Shown here: in pieces, positions 3,001 through 21,600 of the stretch
Layout of the letters: each line of letters starts with the position of its first letter
Numbering within the stretch: position 1 is the first letter of the stretch
The notes under the pieces: model-generated
What the model was told of the DNA's origin: nothing
Seen by the model: only the letters and a program-made list of their open reading frames with translations
The model's database searches: none
From: a virus
DNA length: 23,912 nt
Direction: 5' to 3' (one strand)
Virus record (IMG/VR): IMGVR_UViG_3300010151_000161
Coordinates: 1-23,912 of that record
Made by a program: the position numbers and the translations under genes

Positions 3001-5637
3001 TTTACCCGTGGGACCATCTAATGACCCAAGAACTATATTGGGGAGGGTAGGTTCAGAAGTATCCGAAGATTCATATATTCCATGAATTTTAATTACATCA
3101 GGAACATTAAGAGAAATCTTCTCATCTTGTACTCTAGTACCATAAGGATAATTTCCATATGTTAACCCATCATTTCTAGTTGTAGAAAGAGTACCAGCAT
3201 TTGTACCAGATCCTTCTGATGTTGACTTATTAACAACATAAACGTTTATAGAACTTTTCTTCTTAGATTTAGAAGTTACTTTATTCTTTCTTAAAGTAGC
3301 AATTAATCTTGCTTCTCCAGTAGAATCATTAGCTCCCAATCCATTGATTTGAAGACTAGTACTTCCATTAGTAAAATCAAATTGATCAGATGCAAGTTTT
3401 TCTGTACTTCCATCTCCTCTTGTCAATACATACCTTTCTTCATCAAAAGGTAAGAATACTTGATTAGAACCAGCTTCTGCTGAGAGAACATTAGAAGAAT
3501 TATTGGTGATTGTTACATCAAATTCTCTTCTAATAATAACGCTACCACCATCAAGATCAACTGAAGAAACATTCTTCTTAGGTAGAGGAGCAAAAATCCT
3601 TTCGTTATTCTCAGTTTTTTCCGTATATGTAGTTAAAACTGATAAATCTGTAATTTCTAGTGCGGAAAGACTCAGACCACCATCACAAATTCCGCTTACA
3701 GTAGTAATTCCACTTATTATAATATTATTAGTGTTTACAATATCAACCTTGGCAAAAGATGGGTCAGTATAACCAGGACGTGTATACCTAACATAATTAC
3801 CACTCGTTACAATACCAGGGAAGGTTAGATTGGGACTAGTGACTGTTGAAATATTTCCAGGACCAGCAGATGCGGGAGTTAACTTAGCAACTCCAATTTC
3901 AAAAAATTCTGAAGGAATAACATCAGCAGAGAATGTGGAACCTGCACCCGCATTATCATGATTAACCAAAGAATAGACAGATCTTACATCTCCTAACCCA
4001 TAATTAGTCCATCCAATACTTACTCTACTATCAGATGTATTATCAAAGACTAATTTTTCACCATTAATAAAGTTTCCAGAGATTTGGTATACAGTTAACG
4101 CAGTTCCAGCACTTACAGCATTCTTAAGGAATGCAGTTGCTCCACTAGAATCACCTTTAACATGTGTTGGAACACTTAAAGTAACTGCTTGATTTATCTG
4201 CAAATCCCCATAAGTCTGTACATCATATACAGAGAGATCCCATCTATTTAAATTATAATTACTAGTTTCATAACCACCAGATTCTAAAGCATAATCATAA
4301 ACTCTTGCAATTCCAATTTCCTTACCTGCAGGAGTTAATGAACTTAAACCAACTCTATCTCTTCTTAAACTGAGAGTTTCAGAAGTACTCAGACCAATTT
4401 TAGGTGATCCAGATGCTCTATCAAGTCTTAAAGTAGATCCAAAAGTAAAATTAACTGCTTGATTCTCAAGTAAATTAGTAGTTCTAGGTTTTTTAACATC
4501 TAAAAGAGTAGGTGCAATAGATTCAACTTCAAATCCCCTTACATATGCCTTTCCTGGACCAACTTTATAAACCATCAAATCTTCAGATGGTTTTTGACCA
4601 GAATCTGTTAATTGATTTTCCTTATAAAGACCATTATTTCCTATTCCATTATTAAGGCTTTCCTTGGCAAAAACATCATATGATTTAACATAATAACTTC
4701 CAGATTCATCAAAAGTTCTCCTAGCAAACTCATTTGCCAAAAGATTATATTCTGTCTTATTGTTTATCTTTCTTAAAACACCATTTTTTACATTCGCTAA
4801 TTCAACAAAATTAGGAACATCAAAAACATCTAAATCTTTCTTTGCTAAAGAAGCAGTAATCTTTAATCTATCTCCACCAGGAGCAGCAAAGTTATTAAAT
4901 CCTTGAGCATTATCATTTAAATAAGGATCTTGGTCAGCATTTACAATTTCTTCAATAACATCTAATCCAATCCTATAACTAGGACTATTATCATATTGAT
5001 CAAGAATAAGAATCTCTGAATCAACATTAACTAAATATCCTCTTAAGAAATATACACCTTCACTAATACGGAATGCAGATCCAATAGAACAAGCATTCAC
5101 TGCTATAGTTCTTGAAAATCCTTCTCCAGCAGTAATAAAACTACTTCCAAAAGTAATATTGGAATCTGTAATCAGATTCTCTCCATCACTGAAATCTCTT
5201 GCTGAATTATTATTCCCAGATTCTCCATAACTTACATAAAGAGTAATATGACCTCTATCAGATTCAGTTGCTGAAATTACTTTTTCAATCTTCGCAGTTA
5301 CACCACTAGTTTCTCCTCTAATGGAAACACCTACTAAATCATCCTGATATAAAGATACAGGAATTCCAAGAAAATTATCTTCAACCTCTACAGCATAAAA
5401 TTTATCAATATACGTCAAATCACCAGGAATTATTTTAGCACCTTCCTTAAAGAAATGGTTGCCAAATTGCTCCACTTGATTTTGCAGCATAGACTGCAAA
5501 GTTGTTAGCTCTCTCGCTTGAACTGGAAAACCAGGTTTAAAAAGAACTTTATAGTAGTCTTTAGCTTTCCCGCCTATTTCAGGTTCATTGAAGTCATCAA
5601 AATAGGGAGCTACGTTAAGATTGGTTTCCTGAGACAT
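1..5637 (-). CDS. DUF4815-type virion structural protein, 3' end outside the window
   Basis: From the ATG at 5635-5637 the frame stays open to base 1: 1,879 complete codons with no stop, so the C-terminus is missing. Residues about 20-65 contain Y-Y-K-V-L-F-K-P-G-F-P-V-Q-A-R-E-L, then T-L-Q-S-M-L-Q-N-Q-V-E and an E-G-A-K-I-I-P-G tail, the pattern of DUF4815 proteins in marine T4-like and other phages. Residues 1141-1160 form a short heptad stretch (I1141, L1144, I1148, L1151), a probable small coiled coil. Six prolines (1684-1689) precede D-P-L-A-Q-S-F-F-V and a beta-rich region with V-D-V-W-F-K-T-K-D and Y-A-L-V-F-L-S-D-S, common in phage baseplate and fibre-base proteins. It sits where T4 has genes 9 and 10, but I see no sequence match to either. 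A role in the outer baseplate or fibre attachment is inferred. The start has the best Shine-Dalgarno sequence in the window. Confidence 0.88.
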   Translation of the reverse strand, partial: MSQETNLNVAPYFDDFNEPEIGGKAKDYYKVLFKPGFPVQARELTTLQSMLQNQVEQFGNHFFKEGAKIIPGDLTYIDKFYAVEVEDNFLGIPVSLYQDDLVGVSIRGETSGVTAKIEKVISATESDRGHITLYVSYGESGNNNSARDFSDGENLITDSNITFGSSFITAGEGFSRTIAVNACSIGSAFRISEGVYFLRGYLVNVDSEILILDQYDNSPSYRIGLDVIEEIVNADQDPYLNDNAQGFNNFAAPGGDRLKITASLAKKDLDVFDVPNFVELANVKNGVLRKINNKTEYNLLANEFARRTFDESGSYYVKSYDVFAKESLNNGIGNNGLYKENQLTDSGQKPSEDLMVYKVGPGKAYVRGFEVESIAPTLLDVKKPRTTNLLENQAVNFTFGSTLRLDRASGSPKIGLSTSETLSLRRDRVGLSSLTPAGKEIGIARVYDYALESGGYETSNYNLNRWDLSVYDVQTYGDLQINQAVTLSVPTHVKGDSSGATAFLKNAVSAGTALTVYQISGNFINGEKLVFDNTSDSRVSIGWTNYGLGDVRSVYSLVNHDNAGAGSTFSADVIPSEFFEIGVAKLTPASAGPGNISTVTSPNLTFPGIVTSGNYVRYTRPGYTDPSFAKVDIVNTNNIIISGITTVSGICDGGLSLSALEITDLSVLTTYTEKTENNERIFAPLPKKNVSSVDLDGGSVIIRREFDVTITNNSSNVLSAEAGSNQVFLPFDEERYVLTRGDGSTEKLASDQFDFTNGSTSLQINGLGANDSTGEARLIATLRKNKVTSKSKKKSSINVYVVNKSTSEGSGTNAGTLSTTRNDGLTYGNYPYGTRVQDEKISLNVPDVIKIHGIYESSDTSEPTLPNIVLGSLDGPTGKTDDLIIGEEFVGTLSGARGTYAVQVDSSKISFIYLNKNTFQNGEIINFLESGVNAIASTLDQGSKNITDYYTFYNGQTLTYYDYSYILRKQGILAPTKSLKVVYTKGYYEANDTGDITTANSYEGFDYGTEIQKIDIFRNTDIIDARPRVDDYTVAVDAASPFEFGGRSFTDDLHSTKYIFASDESETIAFNYYLPRLDRIYLTSDGVFQVKIGEPADNPKLPQPVNDAINVANIALPPYLFNVKNAQITYVDHKRYQMSDIFKLENRIKNLEYYTTLSLLENNTANLFISDSQGKDRFKSGFLIDNFSAVGGQDLTVGVKNSVDLKMGRLRPSHYTTSVSLELGSDAIAGLGTTTSTNADLNFLENITGTNIKRTGQVVSLDYEDVEWLNQPFATRIENVTPFLVKSYDGSIELDPSVDVWIDVNRVEVRDVQMEGSFRGVAEALQAEITDAADGSRLGVSPIIWDAWQTNNVTQDLDMAVNVDMSTGRNGPQDSVTTDVSVTTTLTTTLDQDRTGIQHTVREEIDTESLGDRIVSRNIVQFMRQRNISFTARRMKPNTQVYGFYDNVDINDFIVPKLLEIEMVSGDFAWGENVIGTMSESETIDDIFAPSVPYISFRLALSNHKYGPFNQRDDIYVQNPYNRDLDVPSQYLGNVTLLNVDLASLADERQPEYWGWVQTGMILRGQQSGAVARLTNLRFITDNVGTVQGSYMVPDGNVPGNPLFETGRGIFRLSNSSTNDKTGGVVITSAEEIFYSQGDLDNTQEVTLSLRNARVTHEDFDESRTLATRESITQTASDSVIVGPPPPPPRQDPLAQSFFVDDTEGVFITKVDVWFKTKDPTLPVFCQLREIQTGLPTLKVLPFADIEISSANVNVSEDASVATTITFDSPVYLNGKREYALVFLSDSTEYRLWISRMGEADVTSTAQEAGTILVTSQPILGSLFKSQNASTWDPSQYEDMKFKLYRADFTQEGSVQFFNPTLPTDIEKLRANPFDIDSK

Positions 5638-7242: not shown

Positions 7243-10200
7243 TTAGCTATAGTTTTTCCATTTAAGAGGATATAGCCTTCTGACTATTCCTCCTGTTATA
7301 ATTCCAGTCACTCCATCGGTAGTGTAAGCATTATATGCTTGAGCATCAGCCCTATTTCCAAAGAGAACTTTACCCCAAGAGAAGTTTCCATAATAACCAC
7401 TATATCCAAGACCACTTATAGAATTCCAGTCCTTAACACTAACAGTTACTTTAGCAACTGCAGTTAAACCAGCACCAGTCTTAGACTCTGCTGCAGTTAC
7501 CCCAATAGAGACAGCTGCAACTTCATATACATTATCTATAAAGGTTGAACCTATTCCTATAGTGCTACTATCTTGATAGAGAGAAGTTACTCCATTACCC
7601 ACAGTTGAATTGCTGACCGTGAAGTAATATCCAGTAGCAATTCCACTAACAGTAGTAACTCCAACAATATTAGAATCTCTTAGTTCTGAATCAGGTGGAA
7701 TAAACAAATCAAATACCAATCCAGTTGATGCAACACCCACCGTAGTTGTATGAACACCCGTGATAATTCCGAAATCACCTTGATATGTTACGGTAGTTGC
7801 CTTTCCTCTTACAGGAATAGGATCCCCAATAAGAACTTGAGGTGGATTTGTAGATGTATATCCAGACCCTGGAGTAGATCCAATAGTTATAGCATTTACA
7901 ACACCGCTACTGATAGTTGCCGATGCATATGCTTGACACTCTCCAGGAGTTGTTCCAAGTCCAACAGGAGAACCAATAGTAACCGTAGGAGCAGATGCAT
8001 AACCGTATCCTCCTCCAGTTATACTAAGTGAAGTAATTGTTCCTGCAGTAGAAACATTAGCAGTTGCAGAAGCAGAAACTTTACTATCTTGAGATACAAT
8101 CTCTACTGTATATGTGTTTAAATCAGTATTATTTTCATTAATAGGATCAAAGAATGGTTTTGCATTTTGAACCCAAGCACATGTTGATGCTACACCAACA
8201 CTTTGAATTAAGAAAGCAGTAGGTTGGACAAGTGGTTCATAATGAACTCTATCTTTTCCAATTCTAATTCCATCAATAAACTTATCCTTAGTTTGCTTAC
8301 ACCATTTAATTGGTCTTACTAATGTATCATCAGTAGTAATTCCTGGTCCACCATAAGGATTAGTATTAACAGAATCAGTAGTATTGATTCCAGTAACAAC
8401 TCTTTCGTCCTGAAGCAATCCATATCCTTGATTATATGGATCTCTAGGTTCATTCATTAAGGTAAGTTCATCACCTACTTTTACAGTTTCAAGTACATCC
8501 CGGAAGACAACATCAATATCTCCAGTTCCTTTATAGTAAAGAACCTTGGTAGAATCTCCCTTCTTAGGTGCTTCACTGAATTTAAGAGTGCTTCCCCCAC
8601 TGAAGGTATATGCTTGCCCTGGGACTTGAAGAATATCATTAATGAATACTAATAGAACTGATTGAACATCAATTGATGATCCTTTAGCAGCTCTAATTGT
8701 AAGGTAAGTGCCATCAAGTTTAATTGGGAAAGACTTATTATTTCCATCACATAAATCATCAAAATGATCTAATACTTCTAAATCCCCAATAGTCCATCCT
8801 GCAAATGAATCACTAAAGGTATCTTGCAGAGTGAGCTGGAATTCCTTATAAGTCATAGAAGGATCTGTAGGAATTCCTGCGGTTCCTCCGGTATGAACTG
8901 TTAATATTTCACCTTGTCCATATCCATATCCAGTATTTTTAATTGAGAAATTAATTACACTTGATCCTTGCCCTACTACTACATCAACCTTAGCATGAGT
9001 TCCTATTCCTTGAGTTGACTTAGAACTATAAATCAAATCCAAATTCTCATAAGATTTAGGATCATCAAATTTAACTTTCAATTCTTTATCAACCTTTCCG
9101 CCTCTAGCATAGAAGTGAGTTCTGGTCGATACACCCGTCAGCACCTCAAATTTCTTATTATCAATAATATTAGTAATTGTAGATCCACTCTCAGCAGGAT
9201 CTTGACCGGAAGTAGAGAAGTTCTTCGCCCTAGGAGCAATAATTGCTGCTTGAACTTTTCCTCCACCCTGATAGAATGTAGGAACAGTAGATATTCCAAC
9301 ATTAACAGTAAAGGTAGTTGTAGTTCCTACACTATTAATAGGAACTCCCGCATATGTTGGGTCAGGCTTCCTTGGATAACTATGCTCAGTAGCATGTGCA
9401 TCTCTAGCACATGTAAAGGTAAGAGATTCTGTAGCAATGGCAACATTCGTACCTTTAATCATACTATGAACGGTACTGCCTGCTCCCGTAAGAGTTAAAA
9501 CAAGATCCCCTTCTGAGGGGTCATAAGTTGCAGCAGAAACACTATGATATACTAAAGTAGATATTCCAACATTAAGAGTAATTGTAGTAGCAGTAGTTGC
9601 CCCAATAGAAATTGAAGTATTAGAATAAGGATCACTAGGACGTGGATAACTATGAAGTGTTTGATAATTATCCATTCCACATCTAAATGTGATTCCATTA
9701 TCTAACATCCTGACAGATTCTCCTGCCTTCGACAGTCCATTTGAAGTTGCAGATACAAAGGAATGAATTCCTGTATATGCGGATGGTCTTCCTATCCCCT
9801 CCTCTAATACATTAACCTCAAATGTGTTGGTTGTAACCCCAGTAATTGGTAACCATTTATTACTTACATAATCACTAGATCTTGGATAAGTATGATTAGA
9901 TCCATAACTATCTTTTGCACAACTAAAGGTTAAAGAATTAGTTGCAAATTTAATTCTATCGCCCGTAGTAAAGGACTTCGCTGTTCCTACATAACAAGTC
10001 ATAATACCAGTATTTGGATCATACTGTGCGTCTGTTATAGTCTCAGTTGAAGATCCTGCTAAAGTATGAGATCCGATTGTGAGTACCATATCACCAGTGG
10101 ATCCATTATAAGTCGCTGTAGATGGCGTATAGAAGACGCTTCCAGAGGTTCCAACGTTAACAGTGATTGTATTATCACTAACAGCTGTAATAGAGGTGTT

Positions 10201-13200
10201 AACACCCGTTACAGGGTCTGTGGGACGAGGATAAGCATGACTTGTAATACCTGCATCCATTGAGCAAGTTAATACTATGCTACCAGTATCAAATCCAACA
10301 GTGTCACTGGTAGTGTAAGTATGTCCACTACCCACTGTTAAGACCATAGCACCAGTGGTCGGAGCATAAGTAACATTTGTAGGTACAACCGAACCAATAC
10401 CTGTTACAGTAATAGAACCGACTCCTACACTCACAAAGCTATGAGAGTAGTTGCCACCAACAATCAGGCAACTAGTTCCCGCGCTAACAAAGTTATGTTG
10501 ATAATTACCACCAGAAACTATAGCATTAGAAGATGCACGTTTAAAGGTATGTGCATATTGATCTCCGGGACCAGCAACACCCACATTAACTGTAACAGTT
10601 CCATTATGCTTTATTAATCCATCATCAGAAGCAGAAACAAAAGTATGAGCAGAAGTATTGGATGATGGAGTTACATTAACAGTAAATGTATTAGTTGTTT
10701 TATTAGATACTTCTAACCATCTGTTATTTACAGGATCAGTGGGTCTTGGATAAGAATGTTGAGTAGCATGACTATCTTTAGCACAAGTAAAGATCAATGA
10801 TTCGCCAGCAAGTCTAATCAAATCTCCATTAGAGAATCCATGACTAGTAACTGTTAAAGTTAATACTCCCGTAGTAGGGGCATATGTCGCATTACTTACC
10901 GTATAAGCGGTTCCATCATTTGTAATAGCAAGTGAATTATTATATGCATAATCAGCACCTCTAGGATAATAATGTGTAGATACACCAGCATCAATAGCAC
11001 ATGTCATTCCCAATCCAGTGAATATTACAACACTTGATTTATTAGTAGCATTGAATCCATGAGCAGTGCTGGTAGTGACCGTCATAACACCAGTACTACT
11101 TGTATAGTCCGCTGTATAGATTCCAATAGGACCAGCATAATCACATGTAAGTGCAATACCAGAAAGTTTGATATTTTCTCCTCTCTGCAATCCATGAGGA
11201 AGATGTGTTGTAACTGTAGTCAATCCAGTAATTGAACTATATCCGACATTAGAAATATCTTTTGGTCTATAGAATACCGCAGGATTAGTAATTGCAATTC
11301 CTGTGATACCACCATTTACAATCTGTCCTGTACCAACTCCGGTATAATTAGCAGCATACAAACTTGAGGTTTGAATTGCTACATTAACTGTTGGTTGAAT
11401 ATTAAGTCTATATCCACTACCGCTAGTACCAATACCAATAGATTGAATGGTTCCTGCTGTAGATACAACTGCTGTTCCTCCAGCAGCGACTAATGGTTGC
11501 AATCCGAATCCTTCAGTAGACCCGACAGAAACAATAATTCCACCTACAGGAATATTTGCATTGTTAACATCGTAAGTAACAGAACTTGCTGTTCCTGTGA
11601 AGAAGATACTAGAAATACCAGCACTTTCCTTCATGTCATAATCTTCTTCGCGAGGTTGAGTTCCCTCAGGACCTTGGAAAACACCATTGATTAAAATTAT
11701 ACCATTGCTGGTAGAGAATCCAGTAGCACTCGTTCCACCATTCTTAGTTAAAGCGAATGTCTTAGCAATTCCTGTAAATTCATTTGAAATGTCATCCAGG
11801 ATCATATTATTAGTATATGTCTCTGCAATTGTTCCTGTCTTTCCACTCCTCATAAAGGTTCTACCTTGGAAAGTAGAATGTGTAGCAATCCCTACCCAAT
11901 CTCTATCATCAGGTGCATTAGTATCTGATGAGATTGGTTCTAATCCATAAGGTGCTTCAACAAAATGAATCTTATTCTCACGAATATTATAATTACCCTC
12001 AATTATCTGAACCAAATCACCAGAACTATGGGTAGAAAGTCCAGTACCCATCCATGGTCTATCCACAAGAATAATATTAGTGCTACCAAGACCAACAGTG
12101 TTGATCTTCATAATCTCACTATTGATTTGAACTAGATCCCCACTAAAGAACGAAGTTATTCCAGTAAATTCAATTCTCTCATCTACTAGTGTTATATCTT
12201 TATCCAGAGTGGTAGTTATTGCTCCACCGACAATGGGAGATTGGAACCAATTATCAATTGCAATAAGTGCCTTAGCATTCTGATTAGTTGATGTAAAGGA
12301 GTGTGAAGTTCCAATACCAACAGCACTAATATCCAACACTACAGGATTCTGGAGAAGTGCTTTCTCAGGACTTGCTGCCAATTTAATCGTGCTGTCATTA
12401 ACCTTAACTGCATATACAGTTGGTGGTACTTTAGTAGTCGCTCCAAAACCAGGACCACTAGTAGAAGCAATACTAATTGCTTGAGTAGACCCTATACCTG
12501 CCCATGAATAAGTAAGTTCTTCACCAGTCACAAAGTAATGATCTGGAATGGTAATTGTATCCGCAGAAACACTAACCAAAGATGTATCACTTGCATCGAC
12601 ATATCTTTGGAATATTGGCAACTCATTATGAAGTAATCCAAAGGTTCTCTTAATATCCGTATGAGTTCCTCTATACTCTGCATAACTGGAAGTAATCTTA
12701 GCAGATTCAAAATCAAGAGATGAAACCATATCATCCTTCTGCAGACTTAAAACATTCTGGAATACTCTTACTTGAACCTTAATATTATGATTTGGAATAA
12801 AGGTTAAATGATTTCTACCGGAACCATCATTATTAGCACCAATAGTTCCTAATCCAGTAGTATGTAATTGAACATTACCATATTCGGTGAAAGCATTGTA
12901 ATCATCGTCATCACAAGCAACAACCTCACACATCTCATAACGCTTATTAGTAGTATCCTCTAATTGAACAACATAGTAGGCAGCATGAGAATCACCATGG
13001 TACTCAGCAATAGTGTTTATACCAGGAGTTCCTGAAGCAGCAATAGATGTGTACCAAGAATCTAAAAGACCAGTACTCATCTCTTGAGCAGTTCCTACTC
13101 CAGTTGCAGTAGATGTGCTACTTGCAATAGAAATAGACATTGCACTTACGCTATGACCTACACCAAGTGCAGAATCAGGAGTAAAGTCAATTTTTAATCT

Positions 13201-16200
13201 CGAACCCTCAATATAAGGATAATAAGTTCCTAATCCACCAACACCATAGGGACTGAGATTATTATCTGATAATTGACCGTATTCAGTCAGATCAACGGTT
13301 GATCCATCATGAATCAAATTAAGTTCATCAAATTCATAGTATGAACCATCATTTGCTCCAATCTCAACAATAACCTTAGCAGAACGATAGGTGGATGCAA
13401 TTCCCACAATAGTGGTTGCAGTGCTAGTTCCACTAGCCATTTGTTTATAGTGGGAATTAATATGAGCAACACTTCCAAGAGCAGTGCTACCTATTCCACT
13501 ATTATTACTCAAAAGATCATGTGAAATATAAGTAACATCATAATTATTGTCTTCATACTTAATAGGATAGAATTGAAGTCTTCCTTCCTCTCCACTGACA
13601 TTCCAATCAAAAGATCCTAAATCAGGATGAGTTTCTATTCTCGCATATTGATTGATAAAGCCATTGGTTCCATCATGAAGAAGTGATACAAGAAGAATCT
13701 GTCTTTCCTTAGTATATCTCTTATCTCTTACATAAGTAAAATATTTTCTACTTCTATATGCAGTTAATTTATCACTATTAATAACAGCATATCTTGTTGA
13801 TCTTGGTTTGTGATTAAATTCTCCACTAAAATCATCAATAGTAAGAACCCTATTTCCAACAGATTCTGAATAATCAGTCAATACTCTATTTTCAAATATG
13901 ATTTGATTAGAGACTAATGCTGTTCCAATTTTAACTGCTTCTTCAGATGCTAAATCGAAAGTATAAACACAATGAAGATGTCCTTCTCCTGTTAAATCTG
14001 CAACAATTTCAGCATCACTATCGAGACCAAAAACTCCACCTGTATTTTCTGCTTGAGTTTCAACAATCAGATCTGAGAATTTTAAGAATCCAGAAGTATG
14101 GTTTAGTGAACTAACAGCATCATTCCAATCTTGATAAGCAACTTTAGATTTTAAAGAGTAAGAGAAGTATTGATAATAATCGTTATCGGGCAATCTTTGA
14201 ACATTATTATTCAGAACACCAGTATCATATGTCCATCCCTTGTTAACCTGAGAATAGGGTCCTAATTTAATATAAGAATCAAAATCAACTTTACTCTTAA
14301 TACGACCCTTAGTGTTAGAAGTTTCACCCGTAAGAATAGATCCAACCAAAAGATCGCTATCAGTAGCAACTTTAAGTGTTTCTATCTTATTATTCCAACT
14401 TTCTACAATTCCACTATCATCACCAGTAGTAACAATTTCTCCATCCTTAAAGTCATTGATTTTTAATTTTATATCAAAAATTGGGAATTGCTTTTTAGGA
14501 ATTATTCTACCAAAAGAAGTAATAGGATCAAAATAACCTGGATATTGGTCACCCTCCAAAACAGAGCTCATATCATAAACTATAGAACCTGTGTTACCAC
14601 CTAAAGCAGAATTTACTTCAGTAACAGGGAAAAGCTTATAGTTATAAGAAGAAGAATTATATCCTAACGATGTACTTCCAACACCAACACTGGTATTCTC
14701 AATAAGAACGTCATCTCCTACAGCAACAGGGAATAAATCACTAAATCCAGTATTAATCCCTACAGTTACTAGTTTAGTGGTGCTATTATAGGTAATGGTA
14801 TTAATTCCAATTCCATTGGAATTGTGAATAGGTATAATAGTTGGGAGAATATTATTCATCCCATAAGTATTCTGTACTATCCTTACCTGAGTAGATCCAA
14901 CATTATATTCTAAAATAACATCATCAATTACCTCACCAGTATATCCATCCAAAACAACTAAACCAGGATCAGTCAAGTAATTCTTACCACCAGATGAAAT
15001 ACCAATACTCTTGAACGATGTAAGAGGTTCAATTGTAAGAATTTCTGGAAGGTTGAGAGAAGGCTTCAAAGTAAAGTCAGTAGGATAATCAAATCCAATA
15101 TTGTCAATCGTATCCTTTTGAATTTTACCAATAGAAGTACTTTGAACTTCTAAAATTGCTCCTTTTCCATACGCAGAGGAAATTGTATTAATACCTGGAT
15201 TAAATTCATACTTTGTACCACCATTAACAACTTCAATTTTAGCAATAGCACCATAAGCAGTTGAAGACCTAGTAGTGTAGTAAGAATTTGCAGTGGCTGA
15301 TGTATAAGAATCTGCTTCAGGATATTTTCTTATATTATACTTAAAGGTGGTAGTTCCTAATCCAACTACTTTCTGAGTTCCTGCATACTGACTATCAACC
15401 AGATTAACCTGATTATTATTAATTACATCAGTATCAACAACAATCTCCTTTTTAATATCCGCAATATAATCTTCATTAATAGGTTCTAGATTATAATAAA
15501 GATTTTCAGGAATATCATCATTTAAGAATAACTTAACAGTGGCATCACTTTCTAATCCAATCTCACCAGTCTTAACAACTTCAAACTTATTAGTAACTCC
15601 GGTAGATTCAAACTTATATTTGAATTCAGGATCCTTATAGAAATTAAAGGTAAATGCTGAATAGGAAGTTACTCCAACCTTTGATGATAAGGTAGAATCA
15701 GATAAATCAAATGTAACAATCTTATTTCTATAAACATCAATCTGAGGATTAATCTCACATAGAGTTCCAATTGTAGCACTAGTAATATCAATATAATTGG
15801 GAATATTTAAATTTAAATCATATCTAGTTTTACATAACCTAATCTTATCTTTTGTATAATAAAGAACATAGTAAAGTTCTTCATTAGTTAATCCACCAGA
15901 AGGAGAAGAAGCTTTATAAAGAATCTTATCACCAGTCTTCAATCCATGATTAGTAATAGTAATAGTATCAGCAGCAGTGTCTATATCCGATGCAGCCCAA
16001 GTGGTAGAGTTATATACGGCTCTTCTATTATCATCATCATATTTTACTGTTATAGTTTGGGTATCCTTTCCAAGATTTGTAACTTGAATTTCATCACCCA
16101 AGGATAATCCATGTGTAGAAGCAGTAGAAACAGTAACAATATTCTGTCCAATTTCACCACTTATAGCAGTTCTCTTTGTAGTAAAACTATGATAGTTTCC

Positions 16201-19200
16201 TATACCAAAATTCTGGAAATAAGGTAACCGTTGGGTAGTAGTTGAACCAACCCCAACAAAAGTTCCTGTAGTTCCTAAACCTACTCTAACAGTCGCAACT
16301 CCAATAAAATCTCTTGCAACATTAGCAATGTATAAGTCTTGACCTTCTGGCAATTCAAATGTAGTTCCAGATGTAATACCAGTTATAGGTTGCCAACATT
16401 GAATTCCAGTTCCACCATGATTTGAATAAGTAACCTTCTCACCAGTCTTCAATCCATGATTAGGAATATAAATCTGACTATAAGGAACAAATACTTGTGT
16501 TACTCCCAAACCAGGCATGGAGAATACTGCAGTAGATCCAACACCTGCAATTGCTGATGTTCCCACACCTACCGATTCATTGGGATTAAAATAAATCTCT
16601 TTATTTGCGCTATAACTATAATCTGTTTTAAATCCAGTATTAATAGTAAATTTACGTGGATTTTCTCTAAGAATAGTAGATGAGCTATACGCAAATCCTA
16701 CAGTACCATCAACTGCTCTTCTAACTCTAATTCTTCCACCAACTTTGTCTATATTAAGAACTTTAACTTTCTCAGTATTACCTATTCCAAGAATATCATT
16801 CTCCCTAATAAATGGGAAATCAAGGAATCCAGTAGTGTAGAAATAAGTGGTTAATCCTGTTACATTAGTACTTCCAATACCTAAAGTAGTTACAAAATTA
16901 TCTGTCCTAATACCTATAGTGTAATCATCTTCTAAATGCGCAAAATAAGTGCTTAAACCAGAAACAGTGATTAATTCGCCATTCTCTAATCCATGAGGAG
17001 CAGTGGTAAATCCAACCACACTTCCTCGACCATCTATAGTAGCAAATTCAACACTAGAATATGAAGTAGTTGCAATACTTACTGAAGAAATACCAGGACT
17101 GTAAAGACTCTTAACTCTAGCAGAAGCATTATTTCCACCTGTTAGAGAATTGTCAAATAAGACTCTATCCCCAACATTATAATTATTACCCCCAGTTAAG
17201 ATGCCAATAGAATCAACCTGGCCAGTAGAAGCACTGTCAATATTTACTGTTTGATTTCTAACATTATCAGGATCAAAAACAAATTCATAATCACTGTTAG
17301 AAGATTTAAATTGATAACCTAAAGTGTTTCTAAACCATTCTGAATCATTTAAATTAAATTCTTCTTGATTTAAATCATTACTCCAATCTGATGTAATGGG
17401 TTCTGAGTAAAAACTAGTTCCAATAACATAAGGAAACTCTGGTCTATAATATCCATCAAAAGATCCAGAAGTATCCGTTTGCCCACCTTCAATAGTAGTA
17501 AAGTATGCATAAACTCCATTAGGATATTCGGGTGTTATTCCAAATCTACCATTATGTTCGTCCAGATCTCCACTATTCTTAAATCCATAATCTTCATTGA
17601 AAAATCCTTGTGGGAAAATAGTAAGAGATGGTCTATTAGAGTGGGAAATCAATTCATACCCAGTTTTCAGTGCTCTAGCAACTCCACCCTCAGGAGTAGT
17701 GTATCCATAAGGACCATAAATGGGATTTCCATCATAAGCCCATCCTAGAAGTGGTGAATGCCAAGAAGAAGTTTGTTCCTTCTGTTGCGCCATCCTTAAA
17801 TCACCAACACCATATTGTATTACTCCACCATCATTTCTTACAAATACAGATTTCCTAAGTTCCCTAGGAGCATACATGTGGCAATATTGTAATCCAAAAT
17901 CTTCTCTCTCCGAACGAGCAATAATTCCATCATCTGCACTTATAGTATCTAATAATTTACGGAATAGATTAACTGTCCACTTCTGAAGATGTCCTTTAAG
18001 TTCACAAGTAGATCCAGCAGGTTTTATAGTAATAGTAGTGGTATCATCGTATCCAATGCCGCCACTTATTACCTTTACTTCTTTTAGTTGTCCACCTTCA
18101 ACAACAGGAGTAAGTGTGGCATAATTTCCACTTCCATTAATTACAAGATCAGGAGGAGCATTATATCCTGTTCCGTTTCGTGTAACTAATACTTCTTGAA
18201 TTTTCCCATTACTAACTACGACCATCACTTCAGCATTTAATCCTTGACCATTAACTTCACCTCCACTTCTAAAGAAGAATTCAGGTTGTCTATCCCAATT
18301 AACAATAGTATCTGACCCGTAAGAACTTCCAGCGTTAGTTAAATAAACAGACTCAATCTCTCCTCTAACAATGGGTTGAACTTGTGCAGAGAAATCTTGA
18401 TTAGATAATGTAGAAACTCCAGTATTTCCTGTGATAACAACAGAAATTGCAGGATAATTAAAAGAATGTATCCCACTACCAATCGAACTTAACTGAACAT
18501 ACTGTTCACTATCAAGATACTGTGTTTTAGAGGTAGTTCCTAATCCAACAGGAGCAAGTTTAAAGGAATTAGTATTTTCCTTTTTAACCAAATATTCTAA
18601 GGAAGTATTAAGACCATCAATAACAGTTCCTGTTGTAGCATAAGTAACAGTCTCGCCTGTCTCATATCCGTGAGAATCTATATTAATAACATTAAGTGAG
18701 GTACTGACACCAGTAGTTTGAGTACTTCTCTTTTTATTTGCATATCCTTCACCACTATTATTAACAACAATATCGGAAATTATATTTTTCTTTGAAGTAG
18801 AATTAATTTCTTGTCGTCCGACTCCATAACCACTAATGAAAACAGTGTTTATTCCACTTATAGCATCCTTTTGTTTGGGATAAATCTTAACTGTTTGAGC
18901 ATCTACTACACCGACATGATAAAGTGATCCTGTAGTTAAACCAGTTAAAGCAGTTTGCTTACCGGGATTATATACAACTTCTTCATAATCTCTAAACTTA
19001 TGATAAGTGGAAAATCCAATTAAACTAGTAGTAGCACTTCCTGCTTGAATAAAGACATTACCACTAGATCCTTGGTTAGTTGCATCAAGAGAAACACTAT
19101 GAGATACAGATCTCATATTGACTGCTGCCGATGCATCCTTACCATTTCCTCCAGTAATAGTAATAAATGGATCACTTACATAATCAAATCCACCATCAAT

Positions 19201-21600
19201 AATTTCAATTCTTTGAAAAGATCCTTTTACTGCACATATACCAGTTGCACCACTACCAACAGAATCTATAATATCTAAACTAGGTGGAGTTACTACATCA
19301 TATCCAGATCCAGGAGATTCTACTTCAATACTTTCAATACCTCCATAGAATACAGTATCTGATGATTTGTAATTTAAAACCTCAACTCCATTAATTAAAA
19401 TACCTGTTCTTCCAGGTTCAGTTATATAATTACCGCTCTTATTTTGAGGATCTTTTACTTCTCTGAAAAGATTTTGTGCTTCTATCTCTTGTCTAGCAAA
19501 ATCATAATCTTCAATAACATTAGAAGTTACAATTCCAGAAATAGAGATATAATTGCCACTATTAATATTAGATCTACTTTTTGCAAAACTTAATTTAGAC
19601 GCATCAATTCTTTTAACAAAATAAAGTCCTTCTTGAAGTTCTGGGAACTTACTCATTGAAGTTTGAATCCCAGCAAAACCATCACTATCAACAATAGTCT
19701 CTTCTTTCACATATGGTTGATAATAGATTCTATCACCAGTATAAAAACCATGATCTAATGGAGCATTTGGATCATTAGCAAGTACATCAATCTCAGTTCC
19801 ACTATACTCACCACTTAAAGTAATTTTTCTACTATAGGGGTTAATATAGGTATCCCGATAAAAAGGAAGGGATGGGGATCCAACTAAAATTTGATTATTA
19901 AAGTTAGTGTAGGTATTTTGAATATTTGCGTTATTTCTATTCAGATAAGGATACCTGGTAGAATCTACTTTTGTTAATTTTCTTTGAACTTCATAAGTGT
20001 AATTAGATAATAATTCACCCTGTCCTCTAATAGTAAAGATCTTAGATCCAGATACCGAAACAATATCACAATCTCTGTTTACTCCATCACTTCTCTTAAC
20101 AAGTCCTCTATCTCCAGCTTTAAAATTATGAATATCATAAGATGTTACTTCATAAGTATAATTTGAACTATTAGTTAAACTAAAATCACTAAGATTATAG
20201 GTATTAGCAACATTACCAATCCAATTCTCTCTTCTAGTAGTAGCAGAAGAAATTCCTAAACTCTTAATCCTACCAGTATCATTCTTAGAATATAAATGAG
20301 TTTCTGGAAGTACAACCTCTTCCAAGACAGATCCAATTCTAACTTTAACTACTTCATCGGTAGTTATTCCAGCATAACCATATGCATTAGCATCTAATCT
20401 AATTTCTGCTGCTGTTCCAATTCCAGAAACAATAGTAGTACTTGCTATACCAAAAAACTGAGTAATAGATTTGGAAGAGTAAGATGCTATTCCAGATATT
20501 CCATTATCATATTTAAAAGCAATCTCTCCAGATTGTGCAAACCCAACAGTAGAATCAACATCAATAGTGGTAGATCCGGAAGAAACAGGAGTTATTACTA
20601 ATGTTTTTGGATGAACGGAAAAATCTCCATAGAGAGTGCCCTGCAGAGTTACATCTTTATTATAATCAGCATCAAAACTTAACTTATAGTATTCTGTATT
20701 ACCTATAGCAATTTTTTCTACATCTGTAACAGATCCATACGCTTCGGTAATGCCATATTTTTCATTAGCATCTTGATATAAGGTATTATTTAAAAGTTTT
20801 GTAGGATCTCCCTGAATGCCTTCAACAACTAAATCTCTAGTTCTTCTCCACCCAGCATCCGATGGTCTGAATAAAAAATCTCTTGGTTTAATAACCGAAA
20901 CTTCTTCACCAAATAATGCACCAAATAAAATTTCAAATGATGGATCAGCACCCTTTGAAGAATAAAAATCTTTAGATTGTTTAATAAAAAGATTCTCATT
21001 TAAATCAGATGTTAAACTTCTCTCAGCAAATCCTGGAATAAATTGTTGCTTTAACTTATTGAGAAATTCAGTGAAAAATAATCCACTTAAATTATAAACA
21101 AGAGGACCTATAGCATATCCCTCATACGTCTCCACAGGGTGCTGTGCTGCCACAGAAGAAGAGAATACGAGTTCTTCTGGGGAATTTACCTTAGAGTATT
21201 GAGTAACGCCACTGAACCCCCTTACACACCCCTCAAAGGTCGTATCTGTCTTACTAGTGTAGGTAATTATTTCATTATCAATCTTAAGGATTCCATACCT
21301 ATCAGGGAATCCTCTTGTACCTGTTAGAATATTACCGTCTTTATCAGTACTTGTACTTACCGTAATAGTAGTATCACTATATGATAAGTCATCACTTAAT
21401 ATACATGTATTAACATTCTTAAAAATTTCATCAAGTTTAATATATTTGTCAAGATTTTGGACGAGATCAGTAGCTCCACTAGGGTATTCCTGTGAAATAT
21501 AATATTGTTTTAAAAAGTCTACAAGAAGTGGATTCTCCTCTGCAATAAAATCTGGTAGTTGATTCTCAACTATCGATTGAATTTTAACTCTAGTTTCCAT
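7243..21600 (-). CDS. Giant multi-repeat baseplate protein in the gene 7 position (expanded gp7-like)
   Basis: One uninterrupted frame encodes 4,785 residues (about 0.5 MDa by residue count), more than four times T4 gp7 (about 1,030). It lies between gp6 and gp8, as gene 7 does in T4. Residues 212-234 read F-Y-S-S-K-G-x3-S-F-x-I-L-F-x2-L-F-x-E-E-V, very like a T4 gp7 segment recalled from memory. Order of regions: an N-terminal F-L-K-Q-Y-Y helix near residue 28; a module ending G-C-V-R-G-F near 125; the gp7-like segment; GxGY units at about 767-1184; a YHYH-like domain at about 1235-1405; HGxxxG[DE] units throughout the first 3,590 residues; a Cys/His/YPR array at about 3500-4100; two GxGY units near 4532 and 4581; and a C-terminus ending K-N-Y-S. 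No signal peptide, membrane segment or enzyme motif is seen. The start follows the gp6 stop by 3 bases, without a strong Shine-Dalgarno sequence. The structural role is strongly supported; gp7 orthology is likely but not proven. Confidence 0.85.
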   Translation of the reverse strand: METRVKIQSIVENQLPDFIAEENPLLVDFLKQYYISQEYPSGATDLVQNLDKYIKLDEIFKNVNTCILSDDLSYSDTTITVSTSTDKDGNILTGTRGFPDRYGILKIDNEIITYTSKTDTTFEGCVRGFSGVTQYSKVNSPEELVFSSSVAAQHPVETYEGYAIGPLVYNLSGLFFTEFLNKLKQQFIPGFAERSLTSDLNENLFIKQSKDFYSSKGADPSFEILFGALFGEEVSVIKPRDFLFRPSDAGWRRTRDLVVEGIQGDPTKLLNNTLYQDANEKYGITEAYGSVTDVEKIAIGNTEYYKLSFDADYNKDVTLQGTLYGDFSVHPKTLVITPVSSGSTTIDVDSTVGFAQSGEIAFKYDNGISGIASYSSKSITQFFGIASTTIVSGIGTAAEIRLDANAYGYAGITTDEVVKVRIGSVLEEVVLPETHLYSKNDTGRIKSLGISSATTRRENWIGNVANTYNLSDFSLTNSSNYTYEVTSYDIHNFKAGDRGLVKRSDGVNRDCDIVSVSGSKIFTIRGQGELLSNYTYEVQRKLTKVDSTRYPYLNRNNANIQNTYTNFNNQILVGSPSLPFYRDTYINPYSRKITLSGEYSGTEIDVLANDPNAPLDHGFYTGDRIYYQPYVKEETIVDSDGFAGIQTSMSKFPELQEGLYFVKRIDASKLSFAKSRSNINSGNYISISGIVTSNVIEDYDFARQEIEAQNLFREVKDPQNKSGNYITEPGRTGILINGVEVLNYKSSDTVFYGGIESIEVESPGSGYDVVTPPSLDIIDSVGSGATGICAVKGSFQRIEIIDGGFDYVSDPFITITGGNGKDASAAVNMRSVSHSVSLDATNQGSSGNVFIQAGSATTSLIGFSTYHKFRDYEEVVYNPGKQTALTGLTTGSLYHVGVVDAQTVKIYPKQKDAISGINTVFISGYGVGRQEINSTSKKNIISDIVVNNSGEGYANKKRSTQTTGVSTSLNVINIDSHGYETGETVTYATTGTVIDGLNTSLEYLVKKENTNSFKLAPVGLGTTSKTQYLDSEQYVQLSSIGSGIHSFNYPAISVVITGNTGVSTLSNQDFSAQVQPIVRGEIESVYLTNAGSSYGSDTIVNWDRQPEFFFRSGGEVNGQGLNAEVMVVVSNGKIQEVLVTRNGTGYNAPPDLVINGSGNYATLTPVVEGGQLKEVKVISGGIGYDDTTTITIKPAGSTCELKGHLQKWTVNLFRKLLDTISADDGIIARSEREDFGLQYCHMYAPRELRKSVFVRNDGGVIQYGVGDLRMAQQKEQTSSWHSPLLGWAYDGNPIYGPYGYTTPEGGVARALKTGYELISHSNRPSLTIFPQGFFNEDYGFKNSGDLDEHNGRFGITPEYPNGVYAYFTTIEGGQTDTSGSFDGYYRPEFPYVIGTSFYSEPITSDWSNDLNQEEFNLNDSEWFRNTLGYQFKSSNSDYEFVFDPDNVRNQTVNIDSASTGQVDSIGILTGGNNYNVGDRVLFDNSLTGGNNASARVKSLYSPGISSVSIATTSYSSVEFATIDGRGSVVGFTTAPHGLENGELITVSGLSTYFAHLEDDYTIGIRTDNFVTTLGIGSTNVTGLTTYFYTTGFLDFPFIRENDILGIGNTEKVKVLNIDKVGGRIRVRRAVDGTVGFAYSSSTILRENPRKFTINTGFKTDYSYSANKEIYFNPNESVGVGTSAIAGVGSTAVFSMPGLGVTQVFVPYSQIYIPNHGLKTGEKVTYSNHGGTGIQCWQPITGITSGTTFELPEGQDLYIANVARDFIGVATVRVGLGTTGTFVGVGSTTTQRLPYFQNFGIGNYHSFTTKRTAISGEIGQNIVTVSTASTHGLSLGDEIQVTNLGKDTQTITVKYDDDNRRAVYNSTTWAASDIDTAADTITITNHGLKTGDKILYKASSPSGGLTNEELYYVLYYTKDKIRLCKTRYDLNLNIPNYIDITSATIGTLCEINPQIDVYRNKIVTFDLSDSTLSSKVGVTSYSAFTFNFYKDPEFKYKFESTGVTNKFEVVKTGEIGLESDATVKLFLNDDIPENLYYNLEPINEDYIADIKKEIVVDTDVINNNQVNLVDSQYAGTQKVVGLGTTTFKYNIRKYPEADSYTSATANSYYTTRSSTAYGAIAKIEVVNGGTKYEFNPGINTISSAYGKGAILEVQSTSIGKIQKDTIDNIGFDYPTDFTLKPSLNLPEILTIEPLTSFKSIGISSGGKNYLTDPGLVVLDGYTGEVIDDVILEYNVGSTQVRIVQNTYGMNNILPTIIPIHNSNGIGINTITYNSTTKLVTVGINTGFSDLFPVAVGDDVLIENTSVGVGSTSLGYNSSSYNYKLFPVTEVNSALGGNTGSIVYDMSSVLEGDQYPGYFDPITSFGRIIPKKQFPIFDIKLKINDFKDGEIVTTGDDSGIVESWNNKIETLKVATDSDLLVGSILTGETSNTKGRIKSKVDFDSYIKLGPYSQVNKGWTYDTGVLNNNVQRLPDNDYYQYFSYSLKSKVAYQDWNDAVSSLNHTSGFLKFSDLIVETQAENTGGVFGLDSDAEIVADLTGEGHLHCVYTFDLASEEAVKIGTALVSNQIIFENRVLTDYSESVGNRVLTIDDFSGEFNHKPRSTRYAVINSDKLTAYRSRKYFTYVRDKRYTKERQILLVSLLHDGTNGFINQYARIETHPDLGSFDWNVSGEEGRLQFYPIKYEDNNYDVTYISHDLLSNNSGIGSTALGSVAHINSHYKQMASGTSTATTIVGIASTYRSAKVIVEIGANDGSYYEFDELNLIHDGSTVDLTEYGQLSDNNLSPYGVGGLGTYYPYIEGSRLKIDFTPDSALGVGHSVSAMSISIASSTSTATGVGTAQEMSTGLLDSWYTSIAASGTPGINTIAEYHGDSHAAYYVVQLEDTTNKRYEMCEVVACDDDDYNAFTEYGNVQLHTTGLGTIGANNDGSGRNHLTFIPNHNIKVQVRVFQNVLSLQKDDMVSSLDFESAKITSSYAEYRGTHTDIKRTFGLLHNELPIFQRYVDASDTSLVSVSADTITIPDHYFVTGEELTYSWAGIGSTQAISIASTSGPGFGATTKVPPTVYAVKVNDSTIKLAASPEKALLQNPVVLDISAVGIGTSHSFTSTNQNAKALIAIDNWFQSPIVGGAITTTLDKDITLVDERIEFTGITSFFSGDLVQINSEIMKINTVGLGSTNIILVDRPWMGTGLSTHSSGDLVQIIEGNYNIRENKIHFVEAPYGLEPISSDTNAPDDRDWVGIATHSTFQGRTFMRSGKTGTIAETYTNNMILDDISNEFTGIAKTFALTKNGGTSATGFSTSNGIILINGVFQGPEGTQPREEDYDMKESAGISSIFFTGTASSVTYDVNNANIPVGGIIVSVGSTEGFGLQPLVAAGGTAVVSTAGTIQSIGIGTSGSGYRLNIQPTVNVAIQTSSLYAANYTGVGTGQIVNGGITGIAITNPAVFYRPKDISNVGYSSITGLTTVTTHLPHGLQRGENIKLSGIALTCDYAGPIGIYTADYTSSTGVMTVTTSTAHGFNATNKSSVVIFTGLGMTCAIDAGVSTHYYPRGADYAYNNSLAITNDGTAYTVSNATYAPTTGVLTLTVTSHGFSNGDLIRLAGESLIFTCAKDSHATQHSYPRPTDPVNNRWLEVSNKTTNTFTVNVTPSSNTSAHTFVSASDDGLIKHNGTVTVNVGVAGPGDQYAHTFKRASSNAIVSGGNYQHNFVSAGTSCLIVGGNYSHSFVSVGVGSITVTGIGSVVPTNVTYAPTTGAMVLTVGSGHTYTTSDTVGFDTGSIVLTCSMDAGITSHAYPRPTDPVTGVNTSITAVSDNTITVNVGTSGSVFYTPSTATYNGSTGDMVLTIGSHTLAGSSTETITDAQYDPNTGIMTCYVGTAKSFTTGDRIKFATNSLTFSCAKDSYGSNHTYPRSSDYVSNKWLPITGVTTNTFEVNVLEEGIGRPSAYTGIHSFVSATSNGLSKAGESVRMLDNGITFRCGMDNYQTLHSYPRPSDPYSNTSISIGATTATTITLNVGISTLVYHSVSAATYDPSEGDLVLTLTGAGSTVHSMIKGTNVAIATESLTFTCARDAHATEHSYPRKPDPTYAGVPINSVGTTTTFTVNVGISTVPTFYQGGGKVQAAIIAPRAKNFSTSGQDPAESGSTITNIIDNKKFEVLTGVSTRTHFYARGGKVDKELKVKFDDPKSYENLDLIYSSKSTQGIGTHAKVDVVVGQGSSVINFSIKNTGYGYGQGEILTVHTGGTAGIPTDPSMTYKEFQLTLQDTFSDSFAGWTIGDLEVLDHFDDLCDGNNKSFPIKLDGTYLTIRAAKGSSIDVQSVLLVFINDILQVPGQAYTFSGGSTLKFSEAPKKGDSTKVLYYKGTGDIDVVFRDVLETVKVGDELTLMNEPRDPYNQGYGLLQDERVVTGINTTDSVNTNPYGGPGITTDDTLVRPIKWCKQTKDKFIDGIRIGKDRVHYEPLVQPTAFLIQSVGVASTCAWVQNAKPFFDPINENNTDLNTYTVEIVSQDSKVSASATANVSTAGTITSLSITGGGYGYASAPTVTIGSPVGLGTTPGECQAYASATISSGVVNAITIGSTPGSGYTSTNPPQVLIGDPIPVRGKATTVTYQGDFGIITGVHTTTVGVASTGLVFDLFIPPDSELRDSNIVGVTTVSGIATGYYFTVSNSTVGNGVTSLYQDSSTIGIGSTFIDNVYEVAAVSIGVTAAESKTGAGLTAVAKVTVSVKDWNSISGLGYSGYYGNFSWGKVLFGNRADAQAYNAYTTDGVTGIITGGIVRRLYPLKWKNYS
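9301..11103 (-). repeat. Six-copy protein repeat with invariant C-x2-D-x5-H-x-Y-P-R-x2-D
   Basis: Residues about 3500-4100 of the giant protein hold six units, each with a strand-rich lead-in (T-G-x-[LM]-x-L-T-V type), then the motif, then an N-T-F-T-V-N-V-type strand. The motif histidines are at residues 3543, 3615, 3788, 3903, 3983 and 4073, and each motif cysteine is nine residues earlier. Unit spacing varies (72 to 173 residues), mainly because of an insertion between copies two and three. A degenerate unit keeping only L-T-C-D precedes copy one. The DNA copies have diverged, so the repeat shows mainly at protein level. Confidence 0.9.
10396..10557 (-). repeat. Three tandem 18-residue (54-base) units, motif Y-x-H-x-F-[VK]
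   Basis: Residues 3682-3735 of the giant protein form three consecutive 18-residue units starting Y-A-H-T-F, Y-Q-H-N-F and Y-S-H-S-F, with their tyrosines at 3682, 3700 and 3718. The first two end in G-G-N. They lie in the insertion between copies two and three of the C-x2-D-x5-H array. Related single H-x-F-V-S units occur near residue 3652 and inside array copy four. The exact period suggests a regular beta arrangement, which is inference. Confidence 0.85.
15929..15953 (-). repeat. 25-base direct repeat, copy A (HGL module)
   Basis: These 25 bases are identical to 16439-16463, 510 bases away in the same frame and direction. Both encode the core N-H-G-L-K-T-G of an HGxxxG[DE] unit, with the histidine here at residue 1885. 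Other copies of the unit are related only at protein level, so this pair looks like a recent duplication or gene conversion. Confidence 0.85.
16439..16463 (-). repeat. 25-base direct repeat, copy B (HGL module)
   Basis: This copy is identical to 15929-15953 and encodes the same N-H-G-L-K-T-G core, with the histidine at residue 1715. The two copies are 170 residues apart, a distance a multiple of three, so recombination between them would delete or add a module without breaking the frame. Confidence 0.85.
17386..17898 (-). other. YHYH-like domain inside the giant protein
   Basis: Residues about 1235-1405 of the giant protein resemble the YHYH domain. The landmarks are H-S-P-L-L-G-W-A-Y-D-G-N-P-I-Y-G-P-Y-G-Y at 1281-1300, L-D-E-H-N-G-R-F-G at 1346-1354 and G-V-Y-A-Y-F-T-T at 1362-1369. 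In family members as I recall them, the second block is usually L-D-x-C-N-G-R and the third gives the Y-H-Y-H signature. Here the Cys is replaced by H1349 and the signature reads Y-A-Y-F. The function of YHYH domains is not established. Within a baseplate protein it may be a surface or binding module, which is inference. Confidence 0.75.
20899..20967 (-). other. gp7-like conserved segment inside the giant protein
   Basis: These 23 codons are residues 212-234 of the giant protein. The pattern F-Y-S-[ST]-K-G-x3-S-[FY]-x2-L-F-x2-L-[FY]-x-E-E-V is shared with T4 gp7 as I recall its sequence. In T4 the segment lies in the C-terminal third; here it is near the N-terminus. Upstream residues about 24-33 (L-L-V-D-F-L-K-Q-Y-Y) may match the helix that precedes it in T4. 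The comparison is from memory, not from an alignment run. Confidence 0.7.

Follow-up and report, generated by a model that had tools for sequence, protein, structure and literature searches.

The giant baseplate gene and its six motif copies

The window (the whole stretch of DNA analyzed here, namely the 23,912 nt of the IMG/VR fragment IMGVR_UViG_3300010151_000161) originates from a marine T4-like cyanophage and encodes on its minus strand, in this order, gp25, gp6, a giant open reading frame (ORF) of 4785 amino acids (aa), gp8, and a DUF4815 protein, as identified by matches to Pfam and PHROG profiles. Both upstream neighbors of the giant ORF, gp25 (phrog_261) and gp6 (phrog_219 together with Gp6-like Pfam domains), and the downstream gp8 (PF09215, phrog_438) place it at the position of gp7. 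The profile of phrog_2885, a “baseplate wedge subunit”, covers its aa 2–3547 with E = 0, so that the profile match and the placement between gp6 and gp8 agree in identifying a gp7-type wedge protein.

The C-terminal part of this protein carries a short motif in several copies. A six-frame scan of the window with the exact pattern C..D.{5}H.YPR..D returned six matches, all of them in the giant ORF and spanning aa 3534–4080 (Table 1), with no seventh match in any of the six frames, while the expectation by chance, calculated from the composition of the protein, is 7.5e-8 matches. The identical C-x2-D-x5-H-x-Y-P-R-x2-D spacing in six copies, noticed in an initial annotation made from the DNA letters, is thereby confirmed, and the motif histidines are exactly the six residues named there (3543, 3615, 3788, 3903, 3983, and 4073). 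Between 20 residues before and 35 residues after the Cys, the positions identical in all six copies are precisely the seven of the motif; the further statement that the intervening residues vary freely is slightly overstated, as position −5 is restricted to S/G, −4 to L/I, and +7 to S/T, and +17 is mostly P. The degenerate unit preceding copy 1 retains HG..xGE and the Cys and has none of the D, H, or YPR of the motif.

Two other features of the same ORF deserve mention. Motif copies 2 and 3 flank three short tandem hairpin-like repeats of the type H-x-F-x-S/R-A...GG-x-Y (window positions 10396–10599, aa ~3668–3735), which are conserved in relatives. A YHYH domain (PF14240, E 7.7e-24) lies at aa 1274–1371 (window positions 17488–17781); this domain is predicted to bind Zn2+ via conserved His and Asp residues and may be a tail-associated hydrolase (PMC7824862), so the giant protein may have a metal site away from the six-copy region.

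Table 1. Coordinates of the giant gene, the motif copies, and the units modeled or aligned around them
Feature	Window position	Strand	Residues and sequence	Basis
Giant baseplate protein, gp7 position between gp6 and gp8	7243..21600	-	4785 aa	ORF; phrog_2885; P-SSM4 gp7 counterpart
Degenerate FCCH-like unit just upstream of copy 1	11131..11256	-	aa ~3449–3490, HGLQRGENIKLSGIALTCDY	Alignment; weak profile match
Motif copy 1	10951..11001	-	aa 3534–3550, CAIDAGVSTHYYPRGAD	Exact pattern match
Motif copy 2	10735..10785	-	aa 3606–3622, CAKDSHATQHSYPRPTD	Exact pattern match
Whole module around copy 2, predicted FCCH-like beta-barrel	10600..10914	-	aa ~3563–3667	Region model against E1 FCCH, Z 8.0 (model residues 124–228); profile match
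Motif copy 3	10216..10266	-	aa 3779–3795, CSMDAGITSHAYPRPTD	Exact pattern match
Motif copy 4	9871..9921	-	aa 3894–3910, CAKDSYGSNHTYPRSSD	Exact pattern match
Whole module around copy 4, predicted 8-strand beta-barrel	9730..10065	-	aa 3846–3957	AlphaFold2 model; E1 FCCH and endosialidase barrel as fold neighbors
Motif copy 5	9631..9681	-	aa 3974–3990, CGMDNYQTLHSYPRPSD	Exact pattern match
Motif copy 6	9361..9411	-	aa 4064–4080, CARDAHATEHSYPRKPD	Exact pattern match

Spread of the module and the residues it keeps

The motif marks a module of ~85–115 aa that recurs in marine phages. Searches by tblastn matched 296 phage records with the 601-aa region and 379 with the unit consensus, and all phage records matched are named Synechococcus, Prochlorococcus, Cyanophage, or Marine; the genes carrying the module are annotated as gp7, tail fiber, short tail fiber, YHYH protein, or structural protein. 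A search with the pattern was among the checks named in the initial annotation; versions of it with His and with Lys both occur among the viral-contig matches listed. Whole units are inserted or missing between close relatives, the window and locus L003 having six copies and loci L006–L009 four.

The pattern was also matched by 26 stretches in cellular genome contigs, most of them in uncultured marine bins, both bacterial and archaeal. The sole isolate contig checked, which accounts for one of these stretches, is a 188-kb contig of Nonlabens xiamenensis (NZ_RMVE01000006.1; locus L045) that shares 98.7% identity with the cyanophage P-TIM40 over the 8 kb examined and has about the same length as the genome of this phage; it appears to represent a cyanophage carried in a flavobacterial assembly, and a cellular origin was rejected for it. 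No pattern match was found in plasmids, Pfam scans of the giant protein and of 82 units revealed no family specific to the unit, and searches of the literature, which left out most subscription papers, yielded no account of such a repeat.

To describe conservation across the family, a profile built from 82 units was used to collect 1201 usable units, which were reduced to 619 by clustering at 70% identity. In this nonredundant set the motif Pro is kept in 99.8% of the units, the Cys in 616 of the 619 (99.5%), the Tyr in 95%, the second Asp in ~95%, and the Arg in 94%, while the first Asp is present in 85% and the His in 66% only, being replaced by Lys in 26% (158 of the 619); ~8% of the units have neither His nor Lys and still keep the Cys. 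Since many loci had been gathered with a pattern containing the motif, the counts were repeated on 274 units outside the scan pattern and on loci gathered without it, and again Cys and Pro hardly varied, the variable positions being His and the first Asp. The replacement of His is seen even between close relatives: in one pair of syntenic units, which share 97% identity outside the motif and follow matching units, one reads SNHQYPR and the other SNKLYPR, and the unit of L004 orthologous to window copy 4 has Lys for His and reads CAHNGADGAAQIKTYPR. Variability of the pattern in close relatives, which the initial annotation had named as counting against its proposal, is therefore found for His and the first Asp and not for Cys and Pro. 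The proposal itself, a constraint exceeding that of a general beta fold, holds for Cys and YPR; other positions of the predicted barrel are nonetheless equally conserved, namely Gly24 (99.3%), Tyr19 (95%), and His33 (95%).

The loop following the Cys has the standard length in 540 of the 619 units. Units with a shortened loop, either C-x6-H-x-YPR or a Cys followed by a Gly-rich loop and YPR with neither D nor H, stand alongside standard units within one protein (loci L002–L034, e.g., L026, L005, and L016). H-type and K-type units were examined for strict alternation, and none was seen.

Predicted fold and proposed role of the motif residues

The AlphaFold2 model of the unit around copy 4, computed from an 82-sequence alignment, has a predicted local distance difference test score (pLDDT) of 90.5 and a predicted template modeling score (pTM) of 0.82; it is all beta save for a single helical turn following the Cys, and the Cys and H-x-Y each mark the end of a strand. 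Covariation, calculated from 936 sequences (effective number 621), agrees with the predicted pairing of the strands, with the pairs T49–S62 and T51–N60 indicating an antiparallel hairpin and K42–W74, K40–K76, and N79–T86 the rest of the sheet, and with Tyr63, Arg65, and Asp68 covarying strongly. The tested pairs exceed the maximum of 30 column-shuffle controls, which do not preserve relatedness, except for the barely varying Cys–Pro pair. The alternation of residues along the predicted strands would put Leu48, Phe50, and Cys52 on one face of the hairpin together with Ser/Thr59, His/Lys61, and Tyr63, and the hydrophobic pattern suggests that this face points inward.

Comparison of the single-unit model with solved structures gave as neighbors the FCCH domain of UBA1 and UBA6 (Z 8.2) and the barrels of phage endosialidases (Z 7.2), and the same two families were retrieved (Z 8.0 and 7.5) for two units of a 676-residue region model, which is itself of low confidence (pLDDT 70.8, pTM 0.44). 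Profile searches lead to the same two domains: E1_FCCH (PF16190) is the Pfam family matched by the largest number of units (10 of the 82, counting matches at any level, best E 1.6e-4), though it is not among the matches of the full giant protein at E ≤ 1, and End_beta_barrel (PF12195) is matched by 3 of the 82 units (best E 6.7e-4) and weakly by the giant protein at aa 1707–1748 (E 0.003). The units also have a His-Gly-x-x-x-Gly-Asp turn before a strand, with His33 conserved in 95.5% and Gly38 in 71% of the 619, and an HG..xGD.V motif is presumably common to the E1 FCCH sequences and the cyanophage units. In the viral structure library BFVD there are 27 matches at E ≤ 0.001, among which the named proteins are all from cyanophages, one of them annotated as an endosialidase. 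By sequence, no solved structure matches the region, the unit profile giving nothing credible against solved structures (best E 0.027 over a short stretch); for the N-terminal 733 aa of the giant protein, the only matches to solved structures are actin-like and were taken as chance.

These observations are probably best explained if the pattern marks the characteristic hairpin of a cyanophage-specific, FCCH-like barrel that has been multiplied in baseplate and tail proteins, with the motif residues acting as a structural clamp. The six patterns mark six copies of one module, predicted to be a small beta-barrel similar to the E1 FCCH and to the phage endosialidase barrel, which marine T4-like cyanophages have multiplied into bead-like arrays in giant gp7-position and tail-fiber proteins. 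Within each unit, a strand ending at the Cys (L-x-F-x-C) would lead via the D-containing loop into the strand H/K-x-Y and from there into P-R-x-x-D, with the Cys, the His/Lys, the Ser/Thr located two residues ahead of it, and the Tyr likely sharing the inward face, and with the Arg and the second Asp presumably locking the exit turn. The motif residues would thus be kept since they hold the hairpin on the barrel, and not for the binding of a metal. The position of the gene and the gain or loss of whole units further suggest that the modules serve as beads in a baseplate arm of variable length, in which adding or removing units would change how far the arm, presumably reaching from the baseplate towards the host surface, extends.

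Several points weigh against this explanation. The fold matches are modest, as the best Z of ~8 is near the level of common arrangements and the TM-scores are ~0.38–0.4, and Foldseek found no match in the PDB with E below 0.001, the FCCH being matched with E 0.02. Moreover, if the role were purely structural, it would not be obvious why Ser, Ala, or Val almost never take the place of the Cys, so that some chemistry at this residue is conceivable.

The resemblance to endosialidases, whose beta-barrel in phages is sugar-binding, makes a different function of the hairpin the strongest rival in our assessment, namely that of a putative pocket for a small molecule or glycan used in host-surface recognition, with H-type and K-type units differing in specificity. 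Such a pocket would be in line with the fold similarity to the endosialidase beta-barrel and the BFVD match to the cyanophage protein annotated as an endosialidase, with the presence of the module in tail-fiber genes, and with the existence of two loop subtypes, in which H goes with Ser/Thr and K with Ser/Ala. However, the most conserved residues (Cys, Pro, and Gly) resemble determinants of the fold, and a surface used in recognition would usually be expected to diversify instead of remaining constant over 619 units, so that we regard the pocket as unlikely.

The initial annotation put forward a Cys/Asp/His metal site at the tip of each unit. This possibility, taken here to mean a metal such as zinc and to include Tyr as a potential further ligand, can be judged from how the motif positions vary with one another. 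The ligands would be chemically plausible, their spacing is fixed in the six copies of the window, and the Cys and His/Lys are inferred to lie on one hairpin face; nevertheless, the three residues are not jointly retained, given the frequencies of His, Lys, and the first Asp listed above. In counts that treat the units as independent though they are related, so that the p-values are descriptive, 98.2% of the H-type and 97.5% of the K-type units with a standard loop carry the first Asp (Fisher p = 0.70), whereas Ser/Thr two residues before the His occurs in 97% of the former and 51% of the latter (p = 2e-31). The first Asp is found in 521 of the 540 units with the standard loop and in 5 of the 79 with other loop lengths, and short-loop units may retain the His yet lose the Asp. 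Judged from the sequences, the first Asp goes with the loop and the choice of His or Lys goes with the Ser/Thr, which is unlike the behavior of ligands of one metal site. Because the first Asp survives the change of His to Lys, also found in the syntenic unit that is otherwise 97% identical, and vanishes when the loop length changes, a metal site is highly improbable and was abandoned as the leading idea; a cysteine-protease-like C/H/D triad was rejected on the same grounds. The second possibility offered in that annotation, a buried Cys/His/Tyr/Arg network, is partly supported and fits better, as both the predicted strands and the covariation assign Cys, Ser/Thr, His/Lys, and Tyr to a common hairpin face, and as Tyr, Arg, and the second Asp covary.

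A putative covalent or redox bond of the Cys (an interchain disulfide, a thioether to the His, or a Cys–Lys nitrogen–oxygen–sulfur (NOS) bridge) fastening the array within the virion would accommodate the Cys in 616 of the 619 units, the single motif Cys per unit, and the His or Lys that is usually found on the same face as its inferred neighbor, but ~8% of the units keep the Cys with neither partner and an unbonded, buried thiol would account for the Cys more simply, which makes such a bond scarcely credible; the more elaborate version, in which an NOS bridge in K-type and a thioether in H-type units would stiffen the cyanophage baseplate arms or switch them on host contact, is the least probable of all.

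Cyanomyoviruses rank among the most abundant viruses of the sea, yet large parts of the giant proteins of their baseplates and tails lack domain annotation. A recognizable module that has no Pfam model of its own may allow many genes listed as “hypothetical” or “virion structural” to be read as arrays of barrels; it also offers a unit small enough to crystallize, and poses the sharp question of why a buried-looking Cys is almost never replaced in an extracellular protein.

Comparison with known proteins

The closest counterparts in fold are found outside and inside the phage world. The likeness to E1_FCCH of UBA1 and UBA6 (Z 8.0–8.2) extends over ~76–79 residues with a root-mean-square deviation of ~2.7 Å in two separately modeled units. 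Unlike E1_FCCH, the cyanophage units occur as arrays in phage virion proteins and carry the Cys..Asp..His/Lys-x-YPR..Asp hairpin, and ubiquitin chemistry is not expected of them. The endosialidase beta-barrel of phages K1F and phi92 (PF12195; fold neighbor at Z 6.7–7.5) is likewise a phage tail module, but differs in being a single domain of a tailspike.

At the level of the whole gene, the gp7 proteins of the cyanophages P-SSM4, P-HM1, P-HM2, and S-SSM7 (phrog_2885) have arrays like those of the giant ORF and lie in a locus of the same gene order, gp25-gp6-gp7-(...)-gp8. The gp7 of P-SSM4, annotated as “baseplate wedge initiator”, occupies the same position in the locus, with gp9 and a further gene between its gp7 and gp8. 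By annotated coordinates, the gp7-position gene of P-SSM4 has 21939 bases and encodes 7312 aa and that of P-RSM6 has 25722 bases and encodes 8573 aa, both with arrays of units, while the gp7 of T4 is much shorter (~1000 aa). The number of units also differs between these proteins, with six exact copies of the motif in the window and eighteen YPR units, of the H, K, and other types, in the examined part of the P-RSM6 protein.

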